Position numbers and translations under genes: made by a program. 64,000 nucleotides of DNA from Byssochlamys sp. IMV 00236 (Eukaryota; Ascomycota; Eurotiomycetes; Eurotiales; Thermoascaceae): the NCBI GenBank assembly GCA_001931875.2, contig MSJH02000657.1, forward strand, positions 186,001-250,000, written 5' to 3'. How positions within the stretch are numbered: position 1 is the stretch's first letter; each line of letters begins with the position of its first letter. This document shows, piece by piece, positions 2,675 through 51,525 of this stretch. The notes below the pieces were generated by a model, which was given only the letters and a program-made list of their open reading frames with translations, was not told where the DNA came from and searched no databases.

Positions 2675-3792
2675 TTTTGCGACTGTTGTAGATCAAATGA
2701 AACAGTTTCTCGGGCGGGAATAGACTGGTAGAAGAATAAAATGTCAATGACTATGTTACTTTTCTCAAAGGCCCACGCTGCCGAGAATGAATCAAATGAT
2801 GTGTTGTTGGCAATTTGACTTCATCGCCAACTCTCCTATTTAAATAAATTACCCAGTAACGTAACTTAGTAACTTAATTAAGTACTGTACTTACTCCACT
2901 GCTATTCTTGGTTTGGTTAGTTGAGAGAGAGAGAGAAAAAAAAAAGAGCAGCGGATGACGGACCGTGCAACCGTGCCGTCTCCATAAGATCTGAGATAGA
3001 AAGAAATCCCCATGACCATGGATTGATTGCTTTTGTCTTGTCGTGGAAGTGATATCATTATTATACCGTATTGTGGTGAGAATTCCTCCCGTTCCGAATA
3101 CTTACAAGGTTCTGGCCACGTCCACTGGGCTTTTTTTTTTTTTGGAGATGCAATTTGAGAAACTAATATAACTATCGATTATCTGTTATTGTGGCTAATG
3201 CAGCTAGTTACTACACACAAAATACTATTGCCTTCGACCTCGTACAACAGTCGTGAGTGTGCATACAAACGAAATACCTCAGTCAATCACAACAACCCCG
3301 CGGAAGAAACTTACCGAGGGGTTACAGTACTTACCGATCGCTTCATACTTAACTTGACCTCCCAATAATGACCGCCACGGAATTCAATCTATTAATCAAA
3401 ATACCCAGAAAATAAACTGGAAAGAGCAGATCCATGAGTATATATTCCGCAACTGTCCCCTACAGGGTGAACTGTCTACCGTGGAGAGCTATTTAATACT
3501 ATGTACATATCTGACTTCGGACATTCATACTCCGTACCCCTCCCCCGCAATGAATTTAGCCACGATGGCTTGCGGGTCTGGCCTTCTGGGCCCATGTTAT
3601 TGTCTTCAGATCTTGCTGCTCACGGTAGACACCATAGATAAAATAACATATCACCAGACTTTCGATTCTAGATACGTCTTTCGGGGAACATCTTCCATTG
3701 GAGTTTGTTTAAGTCTTCAGTTCCTATACCCATTAACTACGTACATACATATCTCACATCAGTGATACTTACATACCTACTTCAATCCAACA
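2675..3792. other. Intergenic region between divergent SMP-30 and SDR genes
   Basis: This 1.1 kb holds no convincing gene. It contains a GA run (about 2923-2936) followed by an A tract, and a T tract (about 3131-3143). It should carry the promoters of both the SMP-30 gene (minus) and the SDR (plus). Confidence 0.6.
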
Positions 3793-5049: not shown

Positions 5050-5905
5050 TTACATGACAGCAACAACTCCCGCTCCAACAGCAGCGAGTCCCACCATAAC
5101 CTTAGCATTGGCGCTCATCAGGGACACAGCAGCGCCAGTACTGGTCGTCGAGCCAGCCGTGCCGGATGCCTTGGTTGACGTAGCGGAAGATCCACCCGAA
5201 GTTCTCGAAGCACTTGCTTGAGGACTCGAAGCCTGGCTAGCCACTGTAGGCGCCACTGATGCCGCAGTGCTGGCGGATGCCGCTCCAGTAGCAGATGCAG
5301 ATGCAGAAACCGGGGTGGTAGAACCCGCTGTAACAGTGACAGGAAGGAGATGGATATCAGACGCAGCCAAAGTCTCAGTGCTGACCCCAGGAAAGTTGGC
5401 GCCCGTTCCACTCATAGAACTTGTGCAGACAGCAGAGGTAGTTCCGCCCATGGAGCAGAAAACACCTCCATAGCTGGTGACAGTCGATAGTGTCAGTAAC
5501 CTGCACACCCACATGTCCGCAAGGACACTTGCACTAAGCAAAAGAGGAGTCCAACTTACAAGTCCTCCTCTGGCTCCTTCAACATCCACGCCGCTGTCTT
5601 CGGGCCCGAAATGAGCGTCATTCCCGGTCCCATACCGCAATCCGAACCGTCTGTCCCAACAGGACAAGTGAGATAATACGTCGTGGCAGCGGCATCCTAT
5701 ATATCAGAGAACAAAAATCATATCAGGTAACCATATAACAAAATATCGAATGCTCAATATAATCTCAATGGATGCTAACATTGCCGATAATAGAAGCCAC
5801 CAAGGGCTGAGGATCCGTGTCGGGAATAAAGACTGATATGACAGACGACTGCGCAGATGCCAAGCCAAGCATGGCTAGGCTGGTAACGAACGTTTTGGCA
5901 GCCAT
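5050..5905 (-). CDS. GPI-anchored, Ser/Thr/Ala-rich secreted protein
   Basis: Exons 5905-5780, 5696-5560 and 5473-5050 give 228 aa. Residues 1-18 are a signal peptide ending in an ASA-type cleavage site. The middle has a small Cys-containing domain (YYLTCPVGTDGSDCGMGPG, then FCSMGG and AVCTSS) found in a family of predicted mould GPI proteins of unknown function. Residues from about 135 are a low-complexity Ser/Ala/Thr stalk, likely heavily O-glycosylated. The C-terminus is a short hydrophobic tail (KVMVGLAAVGAGVVAVM) after small residues, which fits a GPI-attachment signal. It is expected at the plasma membrane or cell wall. It lies just downstream of the arylsulfotransferase-like gene on the same strand; I infer no functional link. 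Confidence 0.85.
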
Positions 5906-6684
5906 GGTTAGCTGAACTGAAAATGATCGACTTGGTGAACGAACGACGTAGTTGGATGAGGAGTAAACAAAGTCGACGGAGAGTCGCAGAACGCCGAGTT
6001 AGATATATTCACTTTTTGGAGGCAACCATCGGGGAAGAAACGACACAATGTCCGACCAGGAAAAGGGAGAATGCTAAAAAAAGGCAAAAAAAGTACAAAA
6101 CGGGGCAGTCCGTCGGTCTGGGCCGGCTGGGCGCGACTTGTGGCGTGGCGATTTTATCCAGTAGTCAGGAGCATAGAACAATCAAAAACTGATTCTTCTG
6201 CGGTAACCGAGAACATCAAAATAATCTTCAGCCCAGTGGCTTTTCCTAAGATCTTTACCAGCGCTACCTAGCGACTGAACTTCAAAATTAACGTCGACTT
6301 CAGATAAATTGGTATTATCTTGGGAGGGAGTCTGGGAGATGTTGTAAGCACAAGCAAAAACTTGTAGAGCGTGTAGCTGCCGAGACATGCAACACAAAGC
6401 GTATGACCAAATCGCACATAGACCGAAATGAAGAATCCGGTCTGGATATCAACGTTGTCACTGTGATCGCAGAATGACCCCCATCCACCTGTCAGAGAGA
6501 AAGAAAGAAAAGAAAAGAAAAGAAAAGAAACAGAATCAAAAAACAAGATTCAATATATCTTCAGAATCCCTTATATTCATTGTAGCCACAATCAGGGCTT
6601 GGGTATCTAGCATAATATAAACAGAGAAATATGTCGTCACGGAACTCTGAAAGCATAATCATATCAACAGAGAAACGAAGCATG

Positions 6685-8547
6685 TTATTGAGGCAGGAGT
6701 TGATAATCAAATCGCGAGAGACAGCGTTGAAAACAGCTGATCATCTTAGATAGCGGCGGCCGATTCCGGGCTTTCCAGAGCATGATCAGGATCGCTGCGA
6801 AAAGACAAACTGACAACAATGACTGCTGCAGAGAAGGGATATCCTGGGTGATAGGCTCGAGCAGTGTTCCGGAAGCCTAAGTCACTGGAGTCAGCATGAG
6901 GCACACGAGAGACTACAGCAGGAAAATAGCTGCATGGGAGCAGAGAATAGCTGTTGTAGTTGTACAGTACACTACTTACCATTTGTCCCGTTCTAGCATC
7001 AATCACTCTCGAATAACCCAATATCACGCCGTCAATATCCACAGCAGCAAATCGAAGATAACACTCGTCCAGATCCTCCGGCAGCTCTATGCTCGTCTCG
7101 AAGCTTTCCTTCGTCGTATAACCGATCGAATCATACTCTTCCTCCGTAGCGTGAGGGTAAGGTGCCGTCTGTGTAATCCAACCCGCGACTTCAGTTGCAC
7201 CGTTCCAGCTCACGTAGGCTGTTCCAATATCCACATCCATTTCCACATCGGGTGGGTAATTAGGCATCCCTACCCACGGGCTCTTGAAGGCGCGATACGA
7301 TTTCACCCATCCGAAATTGAAGAACATTGAGGGTCCAAAATGGACGTCGCATAAGATCTGCCCGTCGGGTGTGAATTCGGTATATGCGGACGTGTGACCC
7401 CAGCCGACAAAGACGTGACCGCTCTCTGGCATGATCTGGACTGAACCCTGTGAGCCGCTGATAAATCCCTGAGGGCTTCTGTATTCATGTACAAGCGTAG
7501 CCGTCATATGGTCTAGATCAAGGGAGACAATCATTCCGCGACTATACTCTGCTGTTATTATCGATCTATCATCAGCGCCATTGTCGAATATTGTCAACGT
7601 GTTGTTGGGATACCAGTTGACATGATGCTGCCAGCTGAAGTTCGACGCAGCGCCTCCTGACAGATCCTTGAAGCTGCTTCTCTTTCCACCGAGCACCCAG
7701 AGAACGTCCCCAGACGGACTGATACAGGTCACTGTATGCATGTATCGAGAAGAGATGTAGTAGTTGCCATCCGGATCTTTATCCACGCTGTTGATGTGGA
7801 AATAGTCGAACGCTTTGTCTTCCCTAGAGCCCTTGTCGCCTATGGGAGCATACGTCTCTTCGACGGGGTAGAAGCTGGAAGCTCGCCATTCGAAAATGAT
7901 ATCTCCAGTTTCAATGTCGATCTCCATGAACAGGCCATCGTAGATCCAACCATCGCGAGACTTCCCTAGCGCGGAAAGGTCTGCGGGGATGATTTCGTAA
8001 ACCGTTACCAGAGCGGTGCCATTATCCGTAAGCTTGAATTCGTGCAGATCTCCGTCTAGTTCACCAGGTACTTCTACCGTGTATGCTACCTCGTACGACG
8101 AATCCAGCTACCATCCGTCAGTATAGATCAAGAGGGCTATGGCTCTCCGCTGTAGATAAGAGTCAAACTGACCATATAGTAAATGCCTCGACCATGGGTC
8201 CCATCGTCAGTTCCACACCAGAATGTCAGGTAATTTTCTCCCTTATACTGCTGCACCTTCATATCCATCACCTCCCCGAAGCGTCCCTCCGTCCAGACGA
8301 GCTCACCCGTATAATCCAGTATTAGCGGGCCCGGGGCCGGGACAGCATGTCCGCGAGGCGTGAGGAGAATATAGTCATGGTCGCAGCGCTCATCCCATTG
8401 CAGAACGTTCAATCGGGGCGCCTCTAGGTCGAACGACTCATAGCTATTCGCTGGATAGGACCCAAGGACGCCGGTATCATACCAGAAGTTGTACCATGAT
8501 TCACAGCTGGCGATCAATGGTAGGGCAAGCAGCACTACCAACAACAT
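6685..8547 (-). CDS. Arylsulfotransferase-family (ASST) secretory protein with C-terminal membrane anchor
   Basis: Exons 8547-8173, 8107-6980 and 6876-6685 give 564 aa. An N-terminal signal peptide (MLLVVLLALPLIAS) is followed by a propeller-like fold of the Arylsulfotran_2 type. Family segments include DGLFMEIDIETGDIIFEWRA, DYFHINSVDKDPDGNYYISSRYMHTV and FSWQHHVNW, with repeated D-x-G-D/N hairpins. The two introns are phase 0. Splicing at 6876 puts exon 3 in a frame that encodes a transmembrane helix (about 514-535, SLLSVCLFAAILIMLWKARN) with a basic cytoplasmic flank. A competing frame, open only if the second intron is ignored, has no such helix. Bacterial relatives transfer sulfate between phenols, but the activity of fungal members is unproven. 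Likely a type I membrane protein of the secretory route or cell surface. Confidence 0.82.
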
Positions 8548-48599: not shown

Positions 48600-49818
48600 T
48601 TATTTGAGATCCAAAATTCGGACTGCGTTTCCTCCCAGAACAGCCTTTATGGAATCTGTATCCCCGGCGAGCGTAGCATCGATCGCTTTGTAGTTGGTCG
48701 TGACACTGAGCCAAGGCTCTTCCTCCTTGCCATCGAGTGGAGGGAAGAATGGATGATCGGTTCCTGGTACAGTTAGAAAAGACTGATTTTCGCCCAAAAC
48801 TACAGATAGGATATATAGCTTTCATACCGAATAGCAACCTGTCCGGTCCTCCTGCTGCATGAATAGCGGCCTTCAGCCCAGCTTCCCCATATACAACGGC
48901 ATCGAGGTATATATTTGTTTTCAACACATCCCACACACTCCTGCTGGGTCCTTTAGTATCGCCACCATTGGCAATGAATTTGCGCTCGTGTGCAATGCAG
49001 CTCTCTATCCGTCCTGCCAGGAAAGGAAGAGTGCCCCCGGAATGAGCCAGCAAGATTTTCAATCGTGGAAACCGATCAAACACACCAGCCAGGAGCATTC
49101 GCGTGACCGCAATGGTGGTCTCAAGTGGGAATCCCAGGGCTAGTGGAAGGACATGGCCGTATCGATCTGTTGCTTCAGGACCACCAAATGCTTCATCTGG
49201 CAGGCCATAATGTGGATGAAGAAAGAGAAGAGTGTCTGTATCTTGCAGAGCTTTCCAGATAGGATCCAGGCCAGGGTCGTCCAATCCTTTGCCCAGCCCA
49301 GACGTGCCCATGATCACACCCCGCAGATGCGGTAGCGTCTTCAGTCGCGCAATTTCCTGTGCGACAATATCTGCGCTAGGTGCACTGAGCGGTAGGGCTC
49401 CGAAGGCGAAGAGGGTCTCCTTCTCATGCAGGGCACGTACTCCATCTGGGTCTGCTGCACTGTTCACTTTGGCGCAAGTTGCCTCCAGATCATCATTGAT
49501 TTTCTCAGCCCATATTTGTGCCTCCTCTGGCTCAACAAAGTCTAACCACGGATTAGCCAACGAGACAACACTGGTAGTGATGCCATGCCGGCGCATGAAG
49601 GCCAGCTTGACATTGATGTCGGAGTACGATGAATCAACGGGTCGCCCTCGTTGGTCAAGAGGAATGGATTCACTGTCATCGGAGGATAGGATGATCAATC
49701 GCGAAGGTGCACCAGACGCAGGGTCATGAACATAGGGTACTGTCTTGCGCGAACGCAGCATATCTATGTAGGACTGGGGGTAGACATGGGTGTGAATGTC
49801 GACAATTGGATGCGACAT
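48600..49818 (-). CDS. Iso-orotate decarboxylase-like amidohydrolase (ACMSD superfamily)
   Basis: Exons 49818-48828 and 48763-48600 join in phase 1 to 384 aa. It is a metal-dependent amidohydrolase-2/ACMSD fold. The ligands are visible: H9 and H11 in DIHTH, H201 in FLHPHYG and D333 in GTDHPFFPP, plus H259 in LLAHSGG. The segments SLANPWLDFVEPEEA, GTSGLGKGLDDPGLDP, HVLPLALGFPLETTIAVTR and GGTLPFLAGRIESC closely resemble fungal iso-orotate decarboxylase rather than general ACMSD. That enzyme turns 5-carboxyuracil into uracil and CO2 in thymine salvage. The neighbouring divergent gene fits thymine 7-hydroxylase, the enzyme that makes this substrate, which strengthens the call. The protein is cytosolic, with no signal peptide. 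Confidence 0.85.
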
Positions 49819-50138
49819 TGTGTTTGAAAGTTGCTCTTGATCTCCAATGGATCACAATGTGCGAATTCAAGGCCTCAGTGCGTCGACAGTTAGTAAAGAA
49901 TATCAGAGATTTAGACAGTATGATTTTCCAAGCAGACGAGGGCGGGGTATCAACGAGGGGAAGTCGACAAGATATGTGGAGGGGTCAGATCTCGATCTCG
50001 AAGTCCACCCAACTGGAAACGGCAAGTGACTAGGTAGACCTCAGAACTGTCCCGGAGCCATTCCAGAAGAAGGCATCAGATAGAGCCAGATTTGAAGCTA
50101 TCGTGACAGGTAATATGGATATCGTACATATCGTCTTT

Positions 50139-50209
50139 CTTATCGAAGCTTATCATCCGACAAGCCGCTGGGAAGACCAAGAGATAAGCTCGTCGATAAG
50201 CCTGATAAG
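50139..50209. promoter_or_regulatory. Cluster of five HGATAR sites in the divergent 49818/50409 promoter
   Basis: GATAAG occurs five times in 71 bp: on the minus strand at 50139-50144 and 50149-50154, and on the plus strand at 50183-50188, 50195-50200 and 50204-50209. Each is preceded by A, C or T, so all satisfy HGATAR, the binding consensus of AreA/Nit2 nitrogen regulators. The cluster lies 200-270 bp upstream of the dioxygenase start and 320-390 bp upstream of the decarboxylase start, in the only intergenic DNA the pair shares. Confidence 0.7.
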
Positions 50210-50408
50210 AACGAGGGCATCAGTATTTATACCTGCCTTAGACTCCACCCACATACTAAGGAGCTGGTAATAGGTCTCCATGATGTTTTGACTCGGTGTT
50301 ATTGGAATCTGTTCCGCGGAGGTTTGAGTGTTCCACGTTGATAAGAAATTCCCCCGCGCGGCGTCAACCGTTACTCATACATACATCGAACAATATCACT
50401 TTTCGAAA

Positions 50409-51525
50409 ATGGAGGGAAACATCGCTCAACAAGAGTGCAAGCCTGCGTCGACGGGCGTCGATAAAGATGATCTAGTTATTCCTGTAAATATCTCCTCATC
50501 TCCAGCTTTCGAGCAATGGAATGCTAAATCAACAGCTTATCGATTTCGAGCCCTTCCGGGCTGGGAGGCCTGCCGAGAAACATGCAGTCGCCATTTCCAT
50601 CCTCAATGCCTTCAAGTCGTCAGGATTCCTTTATCTCAAAAACCACGGAATTCCACCCTCGGTCGTCTCAAAGGTCTTTGGTGATTCAGCACGCTTTTTT
50701 GCTCGCCCGCAGGAGCAGAAGGACAGCCTAGGCTGGACAACCCCGCAGTCCAACCGTGGATATGTGGCTCGTGGTCGTGAGAAGGTTTCTCTACCAGATG
50801 TCGAAGCTTCAAGTGTCGAGGCTATGCGCGCTGCTATCCCAGACTTGAAGGAAACTATGGAGATCGGCTGCGAAGGAAAAGAAGGGTACCCTAATCGCTG
50901 GCCGGACCAGTTGGACGAGGAGGGCAAAGAGTTCAAGCAGACGATGCTCGATTTCTTTGAGACCTGCAAGGACCTACATATGCAGATCATGCGTGCTATA
51001 GCTATAGGAATGTCACTGCCGGAACACTTCTTCGACGAGTTCACCGATGGCGGAGACAACAACCTTCGTCTTCTGCATTACCCGCCCATTCCTAAGGATG
51101 TCTTCAAGAATAACCCGGGGCAGGTCCGCGCTGGTGAACACAGCGACTATGGGTCTCTTACACTTCTTTTCCAGGACTCGCGGGGCGGTCTGCAAGTGCG
51201 CAGTCCAAATAATACATTTGTAGATGCCGTCCCAATCCCTGACACCATTGTTGTTAATGCCGGTGACCTGCTGGCCAGGTGGTCCAACGACATGATCAAA
51301 AGCACCCGCCATCGGGTCGTTGAGCCGACTTCCACAGTCGAAGGAGACGATAAGTCGGATATGTATCCTGCGCGATATAGCGTTGCGTACTTTTGCAACC
51401 CCAACATGGACAAGTTTATCGACGCTCTGCCAGGAACTTATGGTGACGAGATCGGTGTTCCCAAGAAGTATGAGGGGATTAAATCAGGGAACTATCTTGT
51501 GCAGAGGTTGACTGCGACATACTAG
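50409..51525 (+). CDS. Thymine 7-hydroxylase-like Fe(II)/2-oxoglutarate dioxygenase
   Basis: Exons 50409-50483 and 50536-51525 give 354 aa. It begins with the DIOX_N region (VIPLIDFEPF ... SGFLYLKNHGIP). The double-stranded beta helix carries iron ligands H227, D229 and H284 (GEHSDYG, STRHRV) and the 2-oxoglutarate motif R305-Y-S307. From what I recall of the Neurospora enzyme, thymine is held by an Arg and sandwiched by a Tyr and a Phe; R203 (NLRLLHYP), Y230 and F311 fall at matching spacings here. It would oxidise thymine three times, to 5-hydroxymethyl-, 5-formyl- and 5-carboxyuracil. It shares a 590 bp promoter with the decarboxylase that takes the last product. Paralogues with unknown substrates exist in fungi, so the substrate remains inferred. 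Confidence 0.85.

Follow-up and report, generated by a model that had tools for sequence, protein, structure and literature searches.

Organization of the locus

Within the window (the whole 64,000-nucleotide stretch of Byssochlamys sp. IMV 00236 DNA that was analysed, C654:186001-250000), positions 48600-51525 are occupied by two divergent genes, each interrupted by a single intron; the preliminary description of this DNA had placed such a pair there, and the gene models bear it out. On the minus strand (48600..49818) lies a predicted iso-orotate (uracil-5-carboxylate) decarboxylase gene, assigned by homology to the solved chain 4lak and by its active-site residues, which begins with an ATG at 49818 and whose exons (49818-48828 and 48763-48600), separated by a 64-nt GT..AG intron (48827-48764), encode a product of 384 residues. 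On the plus strand (50409..51525) lies a predicted thymine-7-hydroxylase (T7H) gene, assigned by homology to 5c3p, by published active-site residues and by a tree, whose exons (50409-50483 and 50536-51525) flank a 52-nt intron (50484-50535) and encode a dioxygenase of 354 residues. Alternative GT..AG choices for the latter intron yield products of 337-355 residues, and the one chosen keeps a block, VIPLIDF, that aligns to the Neurospora protein.

The two start codons face each other across a 590-bp intergenic region (49819..50408) that, judging from this layout, is a putative bidirectional promoter common to both genes. Five GATAAG sites, located at 50139 and 50149 (minus strand) and at 50183, 50195 and 50204 (plus strand), fall within 71 bp of this gap (50139..50209), and a sixth is found at 50340 (plus strand); by the consensus given in the accessible part of PMC4246892, the five clustered sites are putative AreA/GATA-factor sites. 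No pathway-specific regulator or transporter was recognised beside the pair among the five flanking open reading frames scanned, which include CAF17-type, DnaJ and short-chain dehydrogenase products and of which the nearest on each side carries no Pfam family. The assembly itself comprises 47.4 Mb in 840 contigs, and is thus larger than the Paecilomyces variotii genome, which we take to be roughly 30 Mb; bacterial contamination may account for the excess, and a search of the assembly for bacterial 16S sequence returned one match, on contig C622, that lay below the cut-off (45.4 versus 50 bits; 5 of 482 candidates scored).

The decarboxylase

All five of the best solved sequences for the decarboxylase belong to uracil-5-carboxylate (iso-orotate) decarboxylases (371-375 bits), and the next solved family, ACMSD, reaches 80 bits as against 375. 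Identity to 4lak is 53.7% (194 of 361 aligned positions), and the match to the solved enzyme has an E value of 3.1e-111. The chains 4lan and 4lao are labelled Cordyceps militaris, and 4hk5 and 4lak are presumably C. militaris chains as well. Each metal-ligand position is kept, with H9, H11, H201 and D333 corresponding to H12, H14, H195 and D323 in C. militaris numbering, of which the three histidines are, we assume, metal ligands of the C. militaris enzyme; D333 is counted as kept on the basis of chain 4hk5, which has D at 323, the aligned mutant chain 4lak having N at that position. The substrate residues R59, N89, F230, H259, R270, F336 and F337 are likewise kept, and match R68, N98, F222, H251, R262, F326 and F327, whose roles are taken from the accessible part of PMC6305744. 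That source describes the metal as bound by one aspartate and three histidines, and stresses R68 and N98, the counterparts of R59 and N89, as important for specificity. All 11 mapped active-site residues are therefore retained: eight named in the same excerpt (R68, N98, F222, H251, R262, D323, F326 and F327) and the three assumed histidine ligands.

Homology to the solved iso-orotate decarboxylases (4hk5, 4lak, 4lan and 4hjw) is full-length, and every residue that contacts the carboxylate or the uracil, or binds the metal, is shared; they differ in a segment of 13 residues near 118-130 and in some short insertions, with no functional difference evident. Among the matches listed, the protein is 100% identical (rounded) to one from P. 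variotii and 96% identical to one from P. lecythidis, and the near-identical protein P0001 contains Pfam Amidohydro_2; a scan of both the decarboxylase and the dioxygenase against NCBIfam matched no family. No second copy of the decarboxylase was found in the same genome, where the next matches are at most 30% identical.

When prokaryote contigs were scanned with the decarboxylase alignment, 19 pattern matches were obtained and one relative was confirmed, approximately 35% identical, on a 4.5-kb bacterial contig from a metagenome assembly (L046). There, at L046:310-4247, the decarboxylase-like protein directly follows a 475-residue Amidohydro_1 protein, which by eye resembles a hydantoinase, and a GntR-FCD regulator, with a second GntR-like reading frame also recognised by eye; it may serve a pyrimidine or a hydantoin pathway. 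That contig gave no match to the dioxygenase.

The dioxygenase and its paralogues

The best solved sequence for the dioxygenase is the thymine dioxygenase of Neurospora crassa (420 bits; E = 5.6e-125; 59.1% identity to 5c3p, or 195 of 330 aligned positions), and the next different solved protein is an ethylene/succinate-forming-type enzyme, at 128 bits. With E values of this order, and of that given above for the decarboxylase, chance is not an issue for either gene. All 15 cofactor and substrate residues published for the N. crassa enzyme in the accessible part of PMC4787775 are shared, among them the HxD..H triad (H227, D229 and H284); the 2-oxoglutarate-binding residues R305, S307 and Y207 (R286, S288 and Y194 in N. 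crassa T7H); and the thymine-contact set N98, E134, R203, Y230, F311 and N313 (N87, E122, R190, Y217, F292 and N294), within which the counterparts of N98, E134 and N313 are the residues described by that source as hydrogen-bonding the uracil ring. The present protein differs from 5c3p by a six-residue insertion near 292-297. Among the matches listed, it is 99% identical to a P. variotii protein, which together with the decarboxylase matches points to a genome of P. variotii or a very near relative, and Pfam DIOX_N and 2OG-FeII_Oxy were found in P0121, which is 99% identical to it. A separate T7H labelled 'Paecilomyces variotii No. 5' (P0122) is only 90% identical, whereas the other P. variotii cluster stands at 99%, a difference suggesting that it comes from another species.

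No second copy of the dioxygenase was found in the same genome, in which ten other, paralogous loci were matched. These paralogues were examined because HxnY, an enzyme of the nicotinate pathway with N. crassa T7H as its nearest structural homologue, also keeps the metal, 2-oxoglutarate and ring-stacking residues (PMC9304392, in excerpt). The residue comparison took in nine of the ten loci (all except L019, on C806), of which five cover all 15 T7H positions and the other four cover 14, 13, 10 and 9. None of the nine keeps the whole residue set where it is covered: N313 is changed in all eight loci that cover it, other changes include Y230 to W, and the closest paralogue (L015) departs at N313 alone, the other 12 of its 13 covered positions being kept. 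The trio N98, E134 and N313 occurs together in none of the five fully covering loci, and at least one of its members is missing from every one of the four loci with partial coverage.

In a tree of 22 rows, drawn without HxnY and with very long branches on several outside rows, the dioxygenase, 5c3p and 13 fungal relatives form a T7H clade of 15 rows with support of 95/96, outside which fall five paralogues from the same genome and two other solved dioxygenases; only this clade is relied upon, since the paralogue pieces have long branches. One row of the tree is itself unusual: a T7H labelled as from the basidiomycete Amanita polypyramis (P0204) is 69% identical to the cluster of the present dioxygenase and groups with Aspergillus and Penicillium rows (91/82), and may reflect either contamination or gene transfer.

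The preliminary description had assigned the two proteins to the iso-orotate decarboxylase and thymine 7-hydroxylase families, and both assignments held up in comparisons of sequence and residues (53.7% and 11/11; 59.1% and 15/15) and, for the dioxygenase, in the tree (95/96). It had proposed a search against characterised enzymes, in which the best solved relatives proved to be the two that it named, and a phylogenetic check, which placed the dioxygenase with N. crassa T7H; the residues it had singled out (H9, H11, H201 and D333 in one protein; H227, D229, H284, R203, Y230 and F311 in the other) are all found at the positions given.

Linkage in other fungi

The two proteins share the same longest contig, as judged by equal contig size, in 35 of 38 named species among the matches listed, and equal-sized longest contigs are almost surely one and the same. 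This count covers species, matched by eye, that are present both among the 120 matches listed of 2631 for one protein and among the 120 listed of 2451 for the other, and omits one 5.8-kb contig paired on its length alone (36 of 39 with it). Four of the 35 linked contigs are under 100 kb. Locus numbers, available for 20 linked pairs, differ by 1 in ten, by 2-10 in five and by more than 10 in five; these last are model numbers issued by one sequencing centre and are not known to be serial, and in three Penicillium pairs intervening genes may exist, because the numbers differ by 3-5. The three misses (P. variotii, Paracoccidioides brasiliensis and Penicillium salamii) involve rows that belong to separate contigs or assemblies, and carry little weight in either direction. 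Residence on a common contig is weaker evidence than adjacency, and the comparison covers contig and locus number, as read from the proteins alone; as far as these show, the pair does stay together in other Eurotiales, a point that the preliminary description had put forward for checking.

GATA sites between the two genes

The 590-bp gap contains six GATAAG motifs, versus 0.41 expected from their density in the window, and eight HGATAR motifs, versus 1.96 expected, the motifs having been chosen after the sequence was read and the background being a small one (the window and 42 loci). When the gap was simulated 5000 times with a first-order Markov model, six GATAAG were never reached, and eight HGATAR were reached in 16 runs. 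Sliding 590-bp windows containing six GATAAG number 7 of 1269, with starts at 49801-50101, and all overlap the gap, which is the densest GATA stretch in the window. The window as a whole is mildly enriched in GATAAG (45 versus a shuffle mean of 33.9, with at least 45 in 6 of 100 shuffles). Across 42 other loci of the same genome (155,079 bases, partly overlapping), GATAAG occurs at 0.38 per 590 bp, and no stretch of that length has more than four, a count seen in the locus L047 described below.

AreA and its counterpart NIT2 are described in the accessible part of PMC4246892 as favouring at least two HGATAR sites within 30 bp; such spacing is found here at 50140/50150 and at 50182/50194/50203. 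Control may be wider than nitrogen, because the N. crassa decarboxylase gene, uc-7, is reported to be induced by sulfur starvation (PMC8550094, in excerpt). Among the titles and openings of abstracts listed in the literature surveyed, in which subscription journals were mostly outside the scope, none dealt with GATA or AreA control of a T7H-decarboxylase pair, and the dense GATA-site cluster between the two genes seems to be a new detail.

Candidate genes for the fate of uracil

Two loci of the DUF1688 (URC4) type are found in the same genome. At one of them (L047; C627:302000-311500), a GTP_CH_N/GTP_cyclohydro2 gene, a DUF1688 gene and a UPRTase-type gene lie side by side, families for which we take URC1, URC4 and URC6 to be the respective labels. 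Clusters of HGATAR are present between its genes (raw counts of eight at 3040-3275, six at 5374-5503 and seven at 6585-6711), and the other DUF1688 locus (L048) contains four scattered GATAAG and 22 HGATAR in 7 kb. Elsewhere in the assembly, the UPRTase matches on two small contigs (C261 and C264) score identically, as duplicates would. According to the accessible part of PMC7530994, URC1 and URC6 of Lachancea kluyveri convert uracil to 3-hydroxypropionate and ribosylurea, and urea is then released by URC4.

Interpretation

The gene models, the orthology, the intact active sites, the failure of the searches to find a second copy of either gene and the linkage all support an enzymatic reading of the pair, to which we assign a probability of roughly 95%: that the two genes encode an intact thymine-7-hydroxylase and an intact iso-orotate decarboxylase, together a module converting thymine to uracil. 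The chemistry has been shown by others for orthologues. The two proteins would be the terminal pair of enzymes in the thymine route of fungi, in which the hydroxylase, with Fe(II), 2-oxoglutarate and O2, would oxidise the 5-methyl group of thymine in three turns (yielding, successively, 5-hydroxymethyl-, 5-formyl- and 5-carboxyuracil, or iso-orotate), and the amidohydrolase-fold, metal-dependent decarboxylase would then remove the carboxylate as CO2 to leave uracil. It is very improbable that one or both proteins instead use another substrate, either nicotinate-related, as for HxnY, or an aromatic acid, as for the ACMSD and resorcylate decarboxylases. The retention of metal, 2-oxoglutarate and ring-stacking residues is by itself no proof of thymine as substrate, because HxnY keeps them too (PMC9304392, in excerpt), and even the paralogue L015 departs from T7H at only one covered position; the dioxygenase, however, also keeps N98, E134 and N313, which no examined paralogous locus has in full, the decarboxylase keeps R59 and N89 at the positions tied to specificity in the accessible part of PMC6305744, and the two genes are linked and would act consecutively in one route.

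Beyond the enzymes, both genes would be expressed together from the 590-bp gap, AreA sites within it would switch both on when good nitrogen is scarce, and the resulting uracil would pass to UMP, through UPRT, and also to ammonia, by way of the URC genes that this genome carries; taken jointly, these steps have an even chance at best, and perhaps somewhat less, of being right. The GATA cluster in the gap and the URC locus with its own HGATAR clusters together suggest an AreA-controlled route from thymine through uracil to the URC genes, and not nucleotide salvage only. That the pair belongs with the URC genes to a single regulon for nitrogen scavenging under AreA control, with the pair largely a catabolic entry point, is a tentative extension for which the odds are somewhat under even. 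A comparable and likewise less than even likelihood attaches to a purely anabolic use of the same enzymes, bearing only on the regulatory and catabolic part of this explanation, in which the GATA cluster would be incidental or would serve another GATA factor. Because we know of no thymidine kinase in fungi, thymine would on that account be recycled to UMP, and UPRT-type genes are indeed present in the genome. The pathway is called thymidine salvage in the accessible parts of PMC4787775 and PMC6305744, and the presence of GATA sites is not in itself proof of control by AreA, since some gene clusters have comparable numbers of AreA sites and yet their products do not change when areA is mutated (PMC4246892, in excerpt). 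The density and pairing of GATAAG, and the URC locus, which has HGATAR clusters too, nevertheless fit nitrogen control better than such salvage. The thymine locus offers a clean test of fungal thymine 'salvage' versus nitrogen scavenging.

Comparison with known systems

The enzymes, their pathway, their structures and their linkage are already established in publications, and what the locus provides is confirmation, in one more mould, of a compact module for thymine demethylation that is widely retained. The reactions have a parallel in TET oxidation with a base decarboxylase acting next, which is among the reasons why the two enzymes have been studied (PMC4787775 and PMC6305744, in excerpt), and to that parallel the locus adds nothing new. 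The preliminary description had left open whether the linkage had been described before; it has been, for N. crassa and Aspergillus nidulans (Smiley et al. 2005, as cited in the accessible part of PMC6305744), and the module is for that reason not new. The same two genes lie near each other in those fungi, where the decarboxylase gene is, in that paper's wording, 'downstream' of the T7H gene, whereas here the two are head to head. Among bidirectional promoters bound by AreA/NIT2, that of niaD-niiA in Acremonium chrysogenum likewise separates a divergent metabolic pair with GATA sites between its members; there the promoter is AreA-bound (PMC4246892, in excerpt), whereas the sites of the present pair are putative ones, recognised from sequence.
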